Positions 51,196 to 58,519 of a DNA stretch of 64,000 nucleotides are shown here, piece after piece (positions within the stretch are counted from its first letter, which is position 1; every line of letters starts with the position of its first letter). Source of the DNA: Oceanipulchritudo coccoides. GTDB lineage: Bacteria; Verrucomicrobiota; Verrucomicrobiia; Opitutales; Oceanipulchritudinaceae. The notes below the pieces were generated by a model. It worked only from the letters and a program-made list of their open reading frames with translations. It was not told where the DNA came from and ran no database searches. The stretch covers positions 734,990-798,989 of the forward strand of contig NZ_JAAGNX010000002.1 in the NCBI RefSeq assembly GCF_010500615.1, in the 5' to 3' direction. A program made the position numbers and the translations under genes.

Positions 51196-51226
51196 AGCCA
51201 CGGCAGGATTCTGTCGTGGCTTTTTT
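51196..51226 (+). terminator. Rho-independent terminator after the small basic protein gene
   Basis: AGCCACGGCAG and CTGTCGTGGCT form an 11-base-pair stem with one G-T pair and a GATT loop, followed by TTTTT. Confidence 0.92.
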
Positions 51227-51531: not shown

Positions 51532-52557
51532 ATGTTATCGAAAAAAGCGAAAGGTCTTTTCGTTGAAGTCAATGGGTTCTCATATCATGTGGCTGCCGTA
51601 TCGGGACTTGCTCCTCCCTTCACTGTTGATTCCATTCTGGAGATCCCCCGGCATGAACCCGGAAAGTTGAAGGATCTGCTTGAGAAGGCTTCCGTTGGTC
51701 GTCGCAACCGCTTCTTCAACTCCCATTGCGGGATCGTTCCCGAGAGCCGGTTTTTCCGACTTCATACAATCGAGTCGATGACCCGTGCCAAGGAGCCGGG
51801 CTACTTCAACCAAGTTCTGGAGCAGCAATTCCGGATCAATCCCAATTCGTCCCGGATGGTTGCCTTGAACGCTGTCAACGGAGCGCCATTCAGTCCGGAG
51901 AAGTCACTGGCCACCCAGAAGGAGTTAATTCTGTGTGGGGCGGACTCACGCGAATTCAGCGCCTTCCAGGAAAATCTTGTGGAATGTGGCGTTTATCCGC
52001 AGAGCTTGCAGATCAGTACCTTGTCGAGTCTTGCTGGCCTGAAGAATTATCTCACGGTGAAGGAGATTGAGCAACCGGTTCTCCTGGTTGAAATGACACA
52101 AAACTCGGCCAATCTTTTTATTCTCTCCAAGGACAAGGTCGACTTGTGCCGGCCGGTCAATTTCGGATTCAACGGCGTGCTGCCGGTAATCCAGAAGGAA
52201 CTCGGTCTAAAGGACGAGGATTCTGCGCGGGATCTTTTCTTTTCCAACACCTTTGATTTCAGGGAAATCGGTCCGAAGCTCTTGCGGCGGATATTGAAGG
52301 AATTGAATGCCTCGACCGGATTTTACGAGGTCCAGACTGGACAGACAATTCCACAAATTTACATGACCTCCCTTCCGGAAAACCTGTCGTGGATTCCGGA
52401 GGTTGTGGCGGCTGAAATGGATATCAGCCTGTTGGAAATTGATTGGGAAGGTTGGGCCTCGAGTATCGGGGTGTCGTTCGGGGATGATTGTGCTGCCTCC
52501 AGTTTTGATGCCTCGAAGTTTGGTTTATTCAGCTTGTTCGTGAATTTTGAAAGGTAA
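51532..52557 (+). CDS. PilM/GspL-like cytoplasmic protein of a secretin system
   Basis: A 341-residue protein I place in the PilM/GspL actin-like group from context and fold pattern (FLLVEMTQNSANLFILSKDKVDL-like central strand pair, SRPVNFGFNGVLPVIQKEL-like helix). PilM normally binds ATP and the PilN tail and links the inner-membrane ring to the motor. The phosphate-binding start GIDIGSSSVK of active PilM is replaced by GLFVEVNGFSYHV, so nucleotide binding may be lost. It is the first gene of a tightly packed operon (3 bases to the next). No membrane segment is visible. Confidence 0.68.
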   Translation: MLSKKAKGLFVEVNGFSYHVAAVSGLAPPFTVDSILEIPRHEPGKLKDLLEKASVGRRNRFFNSHCGIVPESRFFRLHTIESMTRAKEPGYFNQVLEQQFRINPNSSRMVALNAVNGAPFSPEKSLATQKELILCGADSREFSAFQENLVECGVYPQSLQISTLSSLAGLKNYLTVKEIEQPVLLVEMTQNSANLFILSKDKVDLCRPVNFGFNGVLPVIQKELGLKDEDSARDLFFSNTFDFREIGPKLLRRILKELNASTGFYEVQTGQTIPQIYMTSLPENLSWIPEVVAAEMDISLLEIDWEGWASSIGVSFGDDCAASSFDASKFGLFSLFVNFER

Positions 52558-52560
52558 GAG

Positions 52561-53214
52561 ATGGCCCTTGGGAGCAATAAAAAGAAGGTCTCACAGCGAT
52601 TGTGGCGTCCCGATTTCCGGGAAGTCAGTGTATTGCCGGACACGAAGGTTATCCGCACTGGATTCCTTATTAATTTCGTGGCCATATCCATCGCCCTGCT
52701 TGTGGTGACGATCTACGTGATCAAGGAGTATTCACTGCAGAGCCTCACAGCACAGGTGCGTGAATTACAATCGCAGGTAGCGGATAACACAGCCAGCAAC
52801 CGAAGCATTCTGGATACCAATAAGCGATTCAAGCAGAGCTCCTCTATCATGGAAGAGGTCATTGCCTTCGACCAGCAGCTACTTGAATTCCCTCTGTTCA
52901 TTAAGGAAATCACTCTCATTCTTCCCCAGCGGGTCATCCTTTCCGAGATTCAGATGAAGTCTGCCGAGGGTTTGGATGGAGAGACGAATGCCCCTTATTT
53001 TTCAGTGGATCTTAAGGGTCGTATCCTTGCTGGTTCGGTCATGACGCCTTCGCAAGTCCTCTCCAACTTCCAGGATGAAATCAACAAGCTTCCCAGTATG
53101 AAAGGCCGCCAAATCGAAATGGACCTTGTTCAATTCAGACGGAATAACGAGCAGGGATACTTTGATTTTACGTTAGAGTTGATGATTCCTCCGGAAAAGG
53201 GCTCCAAATCATGA
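52561..53214 (+). CDS. PilN-like inner-membrane assembly protein
   Basis: A 217-residue bitopic protein: basic cytoplasmic N-terminus (residues 1-32), one membrane helix (about 34-54, GFLINFVAISIALLVVTIYVI), a coiled-coil region (about 58-100) and a ferredoxin-like periplasmic part. This is the PilN/GspL-C layout. The INLLP-type motif with which PilN normally docks into PilM is not seen in the N-terminal tail; REVSVLPDTK is the only similar stretch. Its stop overlaps the start of the PilO-like gene (ATGA). Confidence 0.72.
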   Translation: MALGSNKKKVSQRLWRPDFREVSVLPDTKVIRTGFLINFVAISIALLVVTIYVIKEYSLQSLTAQVRELQSQVADNTASNRSILDTNKRFKQSSSIMEEVIAFDQQLLEFPLFIKEITLILPQRVILSEIQMKSAEGLDGETNAPYFSVDLKGRILAGSVMTPSQVLSNFQDEINKLPSMKGRQIEMDLVQFRRNNEQGYFDFTLELMIPPEKGSKS

Positions 53215-53795
53215 ATTTGTCAGTAATCAGTAAAAAATTCTCTGAGTATCCCGTTATTTTTGTCTGCGGGGTGATTACGCCCTTGGCTTTGGTTCTTCTT
53301 TTCATGCGAGCACCAAAACTAGAGCAGTACGAGACCGAGCTTTCGGACCTTGAGCGGGAGTGGGAACAAATTCTCACGAACACCGAGCGTTCCAATGGCC
53401 TGGAGGAAGATATCGCTGCTCTCGAGTCCGGTCTCGAAGATATCGAAAGCCGCCTCATGAGAGTCGAGAACGTGGCGATCAATTACGAGTTTTTCTACGA
53501 CCTCGAGGAAGAGACAGGGGTGACCCTGAACCAGTTTTCCCAGGGAGTTGCCTCCGACGGATCCGAGATTCCGATGGGCCTCGAGAAAATGAAGCATTTC
53601 TCGGTGATTCCTTACGATCTTACGATTGCCGGATCAATGGATCAGTTACTTGGATTCATGGATGTATTGAACCGGCAGAATTACATTGTCCGCCTCGATA
53701 TGCTTCGTCTTTTCCCCTCAATCGGAGAACAGGGGGATGAGGACAATTTAGGTGGTCGTCTGCGCTGTTATGTCCTTGCCGAAAAGCATGAATAA
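53211..53795 (+). CDS. PilO-like inner-membrane assembly protein
   Basis: A 194-residue bitopic protein with a membrane helix at about residues 13-31 (YPVIFVCGVITPLALVLLF), a coiled coil at about 36-85 (LEQYETELSDLEREWEQIL, LEEDIAALESGLEDIESRL) and a compact periplasmic domain ending in a beta-rich MDQLLGFMDVLNRQNYIVRLDML stretch, which is typical of PilO/GspM. It should pair with the PilN-like protein through the coiled coils. It overlaps the next gene by 8 bases. Confidence 0.75.
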   Translation: MNLSVISKKFSEYPVIFVCGVITPLALVLLFMRAPKLEQYETELSDLEREWEQILTNTERSNGLEEDIAALESGLEDIESRLMRVENVAINYEFFYDLEEETGVTLNQFSQGVASDGSEIPMGLEKMKHFSVIPYDLTIAGSMDQLLGFMDVLNRQNYIVRLDMLRLFPSIGEQGDEDNLGGRLRCYVLAEKHE

Positions 53796-54303
53796 AAAAC
53801 ATACAATTTTCGTTATTACCTGCCTGATGGCCTTGAGCACAGGCGCCCTTGGACAGGTGATTATTCCGGTCGGGGAGCGTACTGAATTAATCAGTGGTAT
53901 GCAGAGTGTCGTTGGTAACATGGACAAGGAAGCGGGCGATTTCACAGGACTGGGTTCCCCATTCAGCAAGAAGGCCGAAGCGGATCTAGCGGCTGAGATG
54001 TCAGAAGGCCCGGTGGATATCGAGGAGGATGTGCTCCCGGAAGTGATTTCCGATGAGATTGCCTTGGATGTTATTTCACGCAGCTTCAAACCGGACGGAA
54101 GCATGATTTTCGGAAACCGGGGAATTCTCAAGCTCGGAAACGGTGAGACAATTGAAGAAGGCGAAAGCTTTCCCGCAGAGATCCGGGGAACCACTTACAC
54201 GGTGGAAATCGTCAAAGTCACCGCTCGCGGATACACCCTCAAGGTCGGCGATGCGACCGTGGACAAAACATTTCTGAAGTCTGTTAATCAATCTGGTAAA
54301 TAG
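53788..54303 (+). CDS. Small exported protein between PilO-like and secretin genes, possible PilP/GspC counterpart
   Basis: A 171-residue protein I do not recognise by family. It has a signal peptide or N-terminal anchor (about residues 4-22, HTIFVITCLMALSTGALG), an acidic middle and a C-terminal beta-rich module (GILKLGNGETIEEGESF, TYTVEIVKVTARGYTLKVG). Position and this module recall PilP or the GspC HR domain, which tie the inner-membrane ring to the secretin N0 domain. The start at 53788 (MNKKHTIF) overlaps the PilO-like stop by 8 bases. Function is inferred from context. Confidence 0.6.
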   Translation: MNKKHTIFVITCLMALSTGALGQVIIPVGERTELISGMQSVVGNMDKEAGDFTGLGSPFSKKAEADLAAEMSEGPVDIEEDVLPEVISDEIALDVISRSFKPDGSMIFGNRGILKLGNGETIEEGESFPAEIRGTTYTVEIVKVTARGYTLKVGDATVDKTFLKSVNQSGK

Positions 54304-54358
54304 TCTTTATCTCAAGCCAAACAAAATTCCAACTAGACAATCAAGAAAGGATAAACCG

Positions 54359-56041
54359 ATGAAAGGTCTACAAACCATAGCGATATTATCAGCCTTGCTG
54401 GTAACGACAGTGTCGGCGCAGACCGCAGGCGATCCTGTGGACGCGCAGGCAGATGCCATGATGGCAGATGCCCAACAAGAATCCCTGCAGGCATCCGAAT
54501 TGCCGGAACTACCTGACGAACCAACTTTCGAAGTCCCGGAGGAGGAGGTCTTCCTCGATCTTCCCGGAAGCGACTCTGTCGGCACCGCTGTTGCCAGTGA
54601 TGCCGAAACCATCTCGGTCGACTTTCCAGAAGAGGATGTCCGGGACATCATCCGGAGTGTTGCAGAGCTCTATGAGCTGAATGTGGTCATTCCAGACAGC
54701 TTGGCTGGCAGTGTCAGCATCAAGCTTCGTGACGTTTCCTGGCAGCAGGTTTTTGATGTGGTCCTCGAGCCGCTCAATTTCACCTACATCATTGATGGGA
54801 ACATCATCAAGATCAAGAGTCAGGACGAGCTCGCCGTTGAGCCGGTCGACACACGCGTTTTCATTGTGGACTTTGCCAATGCTGGCGAAATTCGCAGTTC
54901 GGTTGAGCCGCTCATCGATGCGGCCGCCGGGGGCAAGATTCAAGTGGATACTCGCAGTAATGCGCTTGTCATCACTGAACGTCCGAGTCGCATGAATGAC
55001 ATCCAGGAAATCATTGAGACCCTGGACCGTCCGACCGAGCAAGTAATGATCGAATCAAAGTTTGTCGAAATCCAAGGTCGTGAAAATGATTCCCTTGGTG
55101 TTGACTGGCAATCTTTGGTCGGTTGGGGCGTTTCGATGGAACAGGGCCTGAACGGTATTCTGGGTCGTCAGTATGACAGGATATCCGGCAGCGGAATTCC
55201 CACCACGACAACCCGGCAAGACACCGCGGTTTTATCCTCGGACGCCTTCAGCGTTGTCCTGAGTGCCCTTGAGGCAAACTCTGATATCGAGCTGGTTTCC
55301 AATCCAACGATCGTCACCATGAACAACAAGAAGGCGACGATTAACATTGGTGAGGAGTATCCAATCCCGAGTTACCGCTACAATGACGAAGTGGGTCAGT
55401 TTGAAGTGAGTCAATTCGAGTACAAGAATATCGGGATCAACCTGAATGTTATCCCGCAAATCAACAGTGCCGGATTCATCAACCTGAATATTCAACCGGA
55501 AATCAGCAGCCGTAGTGGTGAGGTTTCCTTTGGTGGAGCTTCCGGTGCGCTCATTCCGATTATTTCGACCCGCAAGACGGACAGCAGTGTCACCATCAAG
55601 AGTGGATACACGCTGGCGATTGGTGGGCTGATCGAGCAGTCGGAAGAGTTGACGGATTCGAAGGTGCCGATTCTTGGCTCAATCCCGGGCCTTGGGCGTC
55701 TATTCAGCAGCAAGGGCACGGACATCAATCGTCGTAACCTTATCATCTTCATCACGGCCAAAATCTTGAGTGCAAGTGGAGCCACGTACGAGGATGTCTT
55801 CTCCAAGAAGACCCTGTATGAAATGGGGATTTCCAGCAGCGACATTCCCGGCTATGAGCCATCCGAAGAAGAGGATGCGCTTCTGGACAAGGTAAAGGCC
55901 TCCCGCGATGAGGTTGAGCAACTTGAAGCCCAGCGTAAGCTGCAGGAAAAGATCCAGATGCTGGATGCGGTCAAGAATGCTTCCAAAGAGAACCTCACGG
56001 TCGCTGAGGAGGAAGAATCCTATCCTCGCCGCTTTCAATAA
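54359..56041 (+). CDS. Secretin (GspD/PilQ family)
   Basis: A 560-residue outer-membrane channel subunit. A signal peptide (residues 1-22, ending VSAQT) is followed by an acidic linker, an N0/STN-type domain at about 80-160 (ISVDFPEEDVRDIIRSVAEL), one N1-type domain at about 165-235, and the secretin barrel at about 240-490 with the hallmark SNPTIVTMNNKKATINIGEEYPI (in pieces) and VPILGSIPGLGRLFSSK. The tail (500-560) is a predicted coiled coil rich in Glu and Lys. AAAGGA sits 9 bases before the ATG. It is the last gene of the operon and is followed by a terminator. Confidence 0.93.
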   Translation: MKGLQTIAILSALLVTTVSAQTAGDPVDAQADAMMADAQQESLQASELPELPDEPTFEVPEEEVFLDLPGSDSVGTAVASDAETISVDFPEEDVRDIIRSVAELYELNVVIPDSLAGSVSIKLRDVSWQQVFDVVLEPLNFTYIIDGNIIKIKSQDELAVEPVDTRVFIVDFANAGEIRSSVEPLIDAAAGGKIQVDTRSNALVITERPSRMNDIQEIIETLDRPTEQVMIESKFVEIQGRENDSLGVDWQSLVGWGVSMEQGLNGILGRQYDRISGSGIPTTTTRQDTAVLSSDAFSVVLSALEANSDIELVSNPTIVTMNNKKATINIGEEYPIPSYRYNDEVGQFEVSQFEYKNIGINLNVIPQINSAGFINLNIQPEISSRSGEVSFGGASGALIPIISTRKTDSSVTIKSGYTLAIGGLIEQSEELTDSKVPILGSIPGLGRLFSSKGTDINRRNLIIFITAKILSASGATYEDVFSKKTLYEMGISSSDIPGYEPSEEEDALLDKVKASRDEVEQLEAQRKLQEKIQMLDAVKNASKENLTVAEEEESYPRRFQ

Positions 56042-56063: not shown

Positions 56064-56098
56064 GCGGGCGGTTCTGAATGGAGCCGCCCGCTTTATTT
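56064..56098 (+). terminator. Rho-independent terminator after the secretin gene
   Basis: GCGGGCGG and CCGCCCGC form an 8-base-pair GC stem, extended by three weaker pairs, followed by TTTATTTT. It lies between the convergent secretin and Sua5/YwlC genes and overlaps the stop of the latter. Confidence 0.9.
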
Positions 56099-57352: not shown

Positions 57353-57493
57353 AAGCGGAACAAAGAAGGTGCTTAAAATTTGCATGGCAAGAAAAAAGTC
57401 ATTTCGTAGATTCCTTTTCTCTGGGCTCGAAGGGTCCATTGGTCTTGAGTTCGCAGAAGGCATTTGCCAACGTCCCCCCTGAATTTTCCCGAT

Positions 57494-58519
57494 ATGAGAT
57501 TTCGTCAACTTCCCCAACCGACCCAATGGGCGGCCTTTGCGCTGCTTGGCCTCGTCCTCTTTTTGATCTGGGACCAGTATTTCTGGTGGAAACTCCGGGA
57601 TGAATATGCCTTCGGGTTTATCGTGCCGCTTTTTGTGGCCTATGTTCTCTTTGAGCGCTGGCCGCGTCTGGCAAAGGGGTTGATTGGAGATGCTGACACG
57701 CAGGAAGCTGCTTCCAATCCTTCCAGCGACGGACCTGCATCGACCTTTTCCAGCCTTTTGGAGAAGGCCCTTATCACGATTTCCGTCCTGATGGTTGCCG
57801 GGGGATTTGTCTCCTTTTTTGCCGGCTCGCTCTATCGTGCCATGGAGGGGCAAAACCTGATTTCCTCCAATTTTCTGGCTTTCGGCTTTGCCAATATTCT
57901 TCTTGGGGGAGCATTTCTCTATTCCGGGAAAAAGGCCGACGGGACGCCAAATCCACTCAAGGAGCGCTGGCATCTGGCTCTCCTGTTCCTTTTCCCAGCC
58001 TTGATCTGGATGTTGTCGGTCCCCATGTTTAATGCGGTCTACAAGACCATCAGCACTTTCCTGATGAACAAGGTGGCGGTCGTCGTCTACCACTCCTTCG
58101 ATTTACTTGGTTATGCGGTGGTTCGCGAAGGCAGTGTCCTGAAGCTGCCTCTCGGAGACGTGGGTGTGGAGGATGCCTGCTCCGGGATTCGTTCCCTCAC
58201 GGCCTGTCTTTTCGCCGGCTCTTTCCTTGGATCGGTCTATTTTGATAAATTATGGAAAAAGGTGTTCCTTGTCGGGACCGCCATGGTGTTCGCCTTTATC
58301 AACAACATCTTCCGGAGCCTATTCCTGACTGCATGGGCGTATGCAAAAGGTCCCACTGGACTGGATACGCATGTTATTGTCTGGGGCCAGGACCTGGGGA
58401 ATGTGCATGACTTTACCGGTTGGGTCGTTCTTGGCCTGACGGTTATTTGCCTGCTGGCACTGGTTAAATTATTCAGCATCCGGCTGGAATATGAACTCAA
58501 ACCCGGAGAGACCTTATGA
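57494..58519 (+). CDS. Exosortase (PEP-CTERM-type sorting transpeptidase)
   Basis: A 341-residue protein with about eight membrane segments. The three conserved active-site features are present: catalytic Cys in VEDACSGIRSLTAC (near residue 228), Arg in NNIFRSLFLT (near 270), and His in VHDFTGWVVL (near 300). Exosortases recognise a short C-terminal tag (PEP-CTERM) on exported proteins and move them to the surface or into the extracellular polysaccharide matrix. No PEP-CTERM substrate is seen in the window. The TTG at 57464 would add ten residues; ATG 57494 is preferred. Its stop overlaps the glycosyltransferase start (ATGA). Confidence 0.92.
   Translation: MRFRQLPQPTQWAAFALLGLVLFLIWDQYFWWKLRDEYAFGFIVPLFVAYVLFERWPRLAKGLIGDADTQEAASNPSSDGPASTFSSLLEKALITISVLMVAGGFVSFFAGSLYRAMEGQNLISSNFLAFGFANILLGGAFLYSGKKADGTPNPLKERWHLALLFLFPALIWMLSVPMFNAVYKTISTFLMNKVAVVVYHSFDLLGYAVVREGSVLKLPLGDVGVEDACSGIRSLTACLFAGSFLGSVYFDKLWKKVFLVGTAMVFAFINNIFRSLFLTAWAYAKGPTGLDTHVIVWGQDLGNVHDFTGWVVLGLTVICLLALVKLFSIRLEYELKPGETL

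Follow-up and report, generated by a model that had tools for sequence, protein, structure and literature searches.

A PilMNOPQ-type operon of Opitutales with motor genes at distant loci and a PilM that lacks the nucleotide motifs

In a 64,000-nucleotide stretch of the Oceanipulchritudo coccoides genome (hereafter the window), five tightly packed genes encode PilM-, PilN- and PilO-like proteins, an exported protein and a secretin, and the question is to which machine they belong. An earlier note, made from the sequence alone, had left three possibilities: a split type IV pilus, a type II secretion locus, or a reduced envelope machine drifted from both. The five open reading frames (ORFs) lie where that note had placed them, on the + strand at 51532-56041. 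The host genome (3.52 Mb, 99.4% complete) belongs to the order Opitutales of the Verrucomicrobiota; its closest named relatives are Puniceicoccales/Opitutales metagenome-assembled genomes, followed further away by Coraliomargarita, Cerasicoccus, Lacunisphaera and Opitutus. The evidence gathered here indicates that the operon very probably supplies the envelope bridge, PilMNOPQ, for a type IVa-like pilus with dispersed genes, in which PilM acts as a nucleotide-free structural coupler. It is a known machine with altered PilM and PilN motifs, not a new machine.

The operon has the gene content, gene order and domain assignments of a PilMNOPQ set, and it is orthologous to the PilMNOPQ locus (L159:7474-12178) of G248, a genome of another Verrucomicrobiota family that serves as the outgroup. 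When the five G248 proteins are searched with the family profiles, every profile scores best with the protein at its own position, with E-values of 6.5e-14, 1.4e-10, 9.5e-12, 2.2e-4 and 1.9e-62 for PilM, PilN, PilO, PilP and PilQ, respectively. The outgroup PilM matches Pfam PilM_2 above the cut-off and carries all three nucleotide motifs, and PilB and PilC are encoded about 4 kb upstream of its gene; the interval from PilC to the pilM operon contains genes for a response regulator and a sensor-like protein. The M-N-O-P-Q order is complete in 18 of the 20 fetched relatives, the other two ending at a contig or stretch edge, and in 63 of the 80 named loci whose neighbourhoods were surveyed (8 kb or to the contig end), many of the remainder being cut by contig ends. 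In a sample of 387 genomes from the phylum, members of the PilM family occur in Opitutales only, apart from the weak outgroup match. In one family (f4) PilM-N-O-P is present and no secretin gene was found behind it (loci L167, L169, L170, L172 and L173); in the four of these loci that were read (L167, L169, L172 and L173), a nucleotide-sugar epimerase-like gene follows instead.

The individual proteins fit this assignment to different degrees. Members of the PilO family match Pfam PilO (E = 6.1e-7) or T2SSM_b (7 of 21 members), and the family profile finds PilO of 3jc8 (E = 2.5e-4); a search of Protein Data Bank (PDB) sequences with the window PilO returns nothing relevant. The fourth protein, described in the earlier note as an unassigned exported protein, can now be named. 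The predicted structure of its C-terminal domain has a predicted local distance difference test score (pLDDT) of 96-98 in most ten-residue blocks, and the top six rows of a VIA-align comparison are GspC HR, PilP, PulC HR or GspB structures (Z 5.5-6.7), the best of them superimposing 62 residues at 2.3 Å with a Z of 6.7, a middling value within a consistent family. Foldseek gives no match at E ≤ 0.001, whereas VIA-align on the same candidates does; the family profile finds nothing relevant among PDB sequences. As the C-terminal domain is nearest to GspC-HR and PilP structures, the protein is assigned as PilP, in line with the outgroup match. Its gene most likely starts at ATG 53788, so that it shares 8 bases with the end of the PilO gene, and not at the upstream GTG 53752. 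The secretin is indeed short, as had been claimed, with one N0 and one N1 domain: a single STN/N0 match (residues 107-154) and a single Secretin_N match (165-228) precede the Secretin core (303-470), and no AMIN domain was found by profile search. It scores about equally with the PilQ model TIGR02515 (7.3e-69) and the GspD model TIGR02517 (1.4e-70), below the cut-off of both, and reaches 127.9 bits against a cut-off of 750 with the Amuc_1098 model NF042912, mainly over the shared core.

The AlphaFold2 model of PilM (pLDDT 90.4) has the PilM-PilN complex 2ych as its nearest fold (VIA-align Z 22.2, 311 residues). In sequence, it matches TIGR01175 (pilM) below the cut-off (E = 0.01; 14.9 bits, cut-off 133), a model that is matched by 10 of the 21 family members (best 1.4e-7). 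Pfam contains no match for the window PilM or for any of the 21 members, and PDB sequence searches with this protein and with the family profile return nothing relevant. When 122 order-level PilM sequences, among which some genomes are represented twice, are aligned with the outgroup PilM, the three nucleotide motifs of the latter prove to be replaced throughout. The absence of a GIDIGSSS-type phosphate motif, as noted earlier for the window protein, therefore extends to the order: the phosphate-1 and phosphate-2 patterns occur in 0 of 122 sequences, and none retains the GG pair of the adenosine motif. The column at the phosphate-1 site that was equated with K26 of Thermus thermophilus, by motif alignment to the outgroup PilM, holds leucine in 73 sequences, methionine in 12 and lysine in none; in the window protein it is histidine. 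Elsewhere PilM stays strongly conserved: its alignment has 32 invariant columns, some of which fall within the LGLKD, SNTFDF and GF.EVQTG blocks. Judged from these sequences, the nucleotide motifs of PilM have been lost clade-wide, across Opitutales.

In T. thermophilus PilM, K26 is required for ATP binding; the K26A protein does not bind ATP, yet in vitro it binds PilF and, together with PilN, stimulates PilF (PMC6325625). A nucleotide-free PilM is therefore workable, and the Opitutales PilM probably binds no nucleotide. The simplest reading is that PilM has turned into a structural coupler and that its partner PilN has changed to match. One might instead suppose that nucleotide binding by PilM persists, in a pocket rebuilt from other residues. 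An acidic residue persists at both aspartate positions (Glu or Asp at residue 12 in 108 of 122 sequences; Glu at residue 187 in 114) and the actin fold is intact, as this alternative would have it, but the lysine, most of the glycines and the adenosine GG pair are gone, mostly in favour of larger residues, and we regard a rebuilt pocket as unlikely. Literature searches, which covered part of the literature, turned up nothing published on the PilM of Opitutales, nor on any pilus system whose PilM naturally lacks the pocket.

PilN differs from its known counterparts in the region expected to contact PilM. The earlier note had reported that the PilN tail lacks the INLLP docking motif. The absence stands, [IV][ND]LLP being found in 0 of 118 PilN sequences, but the region concerned is the cytoplasmic N-terminus and not a tail, and it carries another motif, LP..K..RT.F, in 111 of the 118; the exceptions include small-genome lineages. 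The W, LPD, K, RT and F of this segment are invariant in the 21-member alignment. The best match of the PilN family profile is the outgroup PilN; one member matches Pfam PilN, and nothing relevant was found among PDB sequences. It may be that LPDxKxxRTxF stands in for INLLP as the docking peptide. It is, in our view, an evenly balanced matter whether PilM is permanently nucleotide-free in the type IVa pilus of the whole order, the PilN docking peptide having been rebuilt alongside. If so, Opitutales would provide a natural demonstration that pilus assembly can dispense with ATP on PilM; alternatively, the ATP task of PilM would have moved to another part, for example the MshEN protein encoded beside PilB. 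This is a stand-alone MshEN-domain protein of 196 residues (L010:8414-9004), immediately before the partner PilB and itself preceded by two response-regulator-like genes.

The earlier note was right that no motor adjoins the operon: the window has no PilB, PilC or PilT homologue beside it, and none of the 80 named loci has one at a distance of up to 8 kb or as far as its contig extends, so that the separation is a property of the clade. Type IVa pilus genes are usually scattered over several loci (PMC6668835). In the Verrucomicrobiota, pili have been observed on the cultivated strain ISCC53 (PMC10284914). The genome search for PilB, PilC and prepilin genes that the note had proposed finds all of them away from the operon. 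The PilC orthologue scores slightly better with the PilC model than with GspF, and the outgroup PilC is 41% identical to it, against 23-24% to the other two PilC-like proteins of the genome. Two PilT-family proteins exceed the TIGR01420 cut-off of 319 bits (459 and 368 bits), and the genome contains 12 prepilin-type N-termini and one prepilin peptidase N-terminal domain (C1:295796).

The link between operon and motor comes from co-occurrence. A total of 89 relatives were scored, and the counts refer to the 75 genomes with a completeness of 90% or more and no more than 5% contamination (good genomes). Orthologues were called at E < 1e-90 for PilC and at E < 1e-160 for PilB, with two fragmentary genes added to the latter; they share at least 44% identity with the PilC of the window genome (next class at most 40%) and at least 51% with its PilB (next class at most 45%). 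PilM and PilB occur together in 41 good genomes, PilM alone in 1, PilB alone in none and neither in 33 (phi 0.97); for PilM and PilC these numbers are 40, 2, 0 and 33 (phi 0.95). In the six families that include both states (f1, f5, f8, f11, f22 and f26), the operon-less good genomes have neither motor orthologue. PilT is present in 40 of the 42 operon-bearing good genomes. The L011-type PilB never occurs without the operon, yet it is found in only 22 of these 42, and is therefore regarded as an extra and not as the core motor. The split type IV pilus is thus the one of the three earlier possibilities that is upheld, PilB and PilC orthologues being encoded elsewhere and co-occurring with the operon almost without exception, whereas the drifted, reduced machine is disfavoured because no core part of a type IVa pilus was found missing. 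Of what the note had named as speaking against an unusual system, a known PilMNOPQ set with the missing parts elsewhere is found; a normal ATP pocket in PilM is not.

Other candidate parts lie in the same genome. A PulE-PilT-PulE cassette with two short, divergent PulE proteins (L012:8716-13017) was considered as the motor partner and rejected, related cassettes (PilT, PilB and another PilC type) being present in operon-less genomes; in many relatives its counterpart includes two full PilB genes and a PilC of its own. A lone prepilin of 114 residues (GFTLVEIMIVVVIIGLLAAMAIPAF; L151:1986-2330, - strand) scores higher as a prepilin than any other in the genome and is a candidate major pilin.

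Several observations weigh against assigning the operon to a type IVa-like pilus. The window PilM, PilN, PilO and PilP reach no curated NCBIfam or Pfam cut-off. The outgroup PilB scores alike with the type II secretion GspE (362 bits) and with the PilB orthologue (361 bits). Co-occurrence tied no major pilin to the system, its cut-offs were chosen once the gap in scores had been seen, and the genomes are related, so that Fisher p-values overstate independence. Finally, in genome G041 a PilC of the same type as the orthologue (L012 type) directly precedes an operon with an Amuc_1098-type secretin. The motor may therefore be shared, and the window operon could be a second envelope complex that uses the same PilB and PilC as an Amuc_1098-type operon, one motor serving two secretins. 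Such a PilC also lies within about 5 kb of Amuc_1098-type operons in G037 and G083, and the window genome carries both operons. However, PilM is only weakly associated with the Amuc_1098-type secretin: 39 good genomes have both, 3 PilM only, 27 the secretin only and 6 neither (phi 0.17). A shared motor has, in our estimate, a small chance of being correct.

The Amuc_1098-type operon of the window genome is situated at C2:917601-922004 (L048:5602-10005); its secretin reaches 324 bits against the cut-off of 750, and is preceded by a 430-residue protein resembling a GspL-type fusion and by two small proteins without an NCBIfam match. It was first suspected that this and the window operon were the same, which was rejected, as they are separate operons in one genome.

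The type II secretion reading of the earlier note, with the motor of the system elsewhere, is highly improbable. The near-equal GspD and PilQ scores of the secretin and the T2SSM_b matches within the PilO family are compatible with it, but it is disfavoured because the genome already has a separate set of genes of this kind, at C2:698-710 kb, comprising GspG above the cut-off, GspE, GspF, GspD, GspM and several pseudopilins. Moreover, GspL/PulL unites in one fused protein (PMC10191384) the two parts that the window operon encodes individually as PilM and PilN, and neither a GspL fusion, nor own pseudopilins, nor gspE, gspF or gspD were found beside the window operon. The near-constant presence of PilT and the slight preference of the matching PilC for the PilC model also argue against it. 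A decaying remnant, in which PilM is losing its function, can hardly be right: all three nucleotide motifs are lost and truncated PilM forms exist in G047 and G411, but the five genes are open and ordered across many families and PilM retains its invariant columns. In those two genomes PilM is shortened to about 200 (L177, G047) and 130 residues (L186, G411), with no N-O-P-Q found downstream; G047 retains its PilB and PilC genes, and its lineage is apparently losing the system.

The type IVa-like assembly that we propose would work as follows. PilB and PilC would polymerise prepilins processed by the peptidase, with a second PilB, like C1:428214-430001, joining in about half of the genomes; the assembly of the proteins and the choice of the prepilin that is polymerised are inferred. 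At the cytoplasmic face, PilM would grip the N-terminus of PilN via LPDxKxxRTxF, without bound nucleotide and as a purely structural coupler. PilN and PilO would cross the periplasm, and PilP would connect both to the N0 domain of PilQ. The pilus would exit through the PilQ secretin, and PilT (C2:246462) could retract it. The features on which this proposal builds are collected in Table 1. Terminator-like hairpins such as those flanking the operon are not enriched across the whole scan (8 observed against 6.3 expected). Further downstream, the ORF at 57464-58519 of the window resembles an exosortase by eye, and elsewhere in the genome a gene of L152 has a PEP-CTERM-like end.

Table 1. Features of the operon and its partner motor genes (window positions, or C1 and C2 positions elsewhere in the genome).
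Feature	Position	Strand	Basis
Terminator-like hairpin, upstream of operon	51196..51221	+	11-pair stem, T-rich tail
PilM-like actin-fold protein, 341 residues, without nucleotide motifs	51532..52557	+	ORF, fold, profiles
Phosphate-1 motif site, PilM residues 10-19	51559..51588	+	outgroup GLDVASSGVK, window FVEVNGFSYH
Phosphate-2 motif site, PilM residues 185-193	52084..52110	+	outgroup VIDFGDTTT, window LVEMTQNSA
Adenosine motif site, PilM residues 277-283	52360..52380	+	outgroup FTSGGLS, window YMTSLPE
PilN-like, 217 residues: short N-terminus in the cytoplasm, single membrane helix, periplasmic domain	52561..53214	+	ORF, profile
Conserved W[R/H]P..R...LPDxKxxRTxF, PilN residues 15-35, candidate PilM-docking peptide	52603..52665	+	alignment
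PilO-like, 194 residues	53211..53795	+	profile matches
PilP-like exported protein, 171 residues, C-terminal beta domain of GspC-HR/PilP type	53788..54303	+	fold, outgroup match
PilQ-like secretin, 560 residues: N0, N1, secretin core	54359..56041	+	Pfam/NCBIfam
Terminator-like hairpin 3' of secretin gene	56064..56091	+	12-pair stem, 9 G-C pairs, T-rich tail
PilB orthologue (L010)	C1:647007-648815		co-occurrence
PilC orthologue (L012)	C2:240389-241546		identity to G248 PilC, co-occurrence

The operon is now linked to distant PilB and PilC genes. It illustrates that gene order, fold and an intermediate locus of the same phylum can together place five genes that curated models scarcely recognise, and a clade that keeps the machine while losing the pocket amounts to a natural experiment on the role of ATP on PilM. 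Among the known systems, it is closest to the type IVa PilMNOPQ sets of Pseudomonas aeruginosa, T. thermophilus and Myxococcus xanthus, with which it shares the five genes, their order, the location of the motor in other loci and the predicted folds of PilM (actin-like, FtsA-type; 2ych, 5eou, 3jc8) and PilP (HR-type beta domain; 2y4y, 2lc4), together with the N0 and N1 domains of PilQ and a genome that encodes PilB, PilC, prepilins, a prepilin peptidase and PilT. Unlike these sets, it has a PilM without the phosphate-1, phosphate-2 and adenosine motifs, a PilN with LPDxKxxRTxF in place of INLLP, a secretin in which AMIN was not found, and sequences that have diverged beyond the reach of the curated models, TIGR01175 included. 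The G248 locus offers the positional best match for all five proteins, but its PilM retains the nucleotide motifs and its PilB and PilC genes lie just upstream. Akkermansia Amuc_1098-1102 (MUL2), of the same phylum, likewise pairs a PilM-like protein with a secretin of the type IV pilus kind (PMC10688800, PMC13174399), whereas the window secretin falls below the NF042912 cut-off and the operon of that type is the separate one at L048. The cytoplasmic domain of GspL and BfpC also use an actin-like fold to couple a motor ATPase to a periplasmic complex (PMC4471445); GspL, however, is fused to its periplasmic part, while the window PilM and PilN are separate and the PilM model is by fold nearest to PilM itself.

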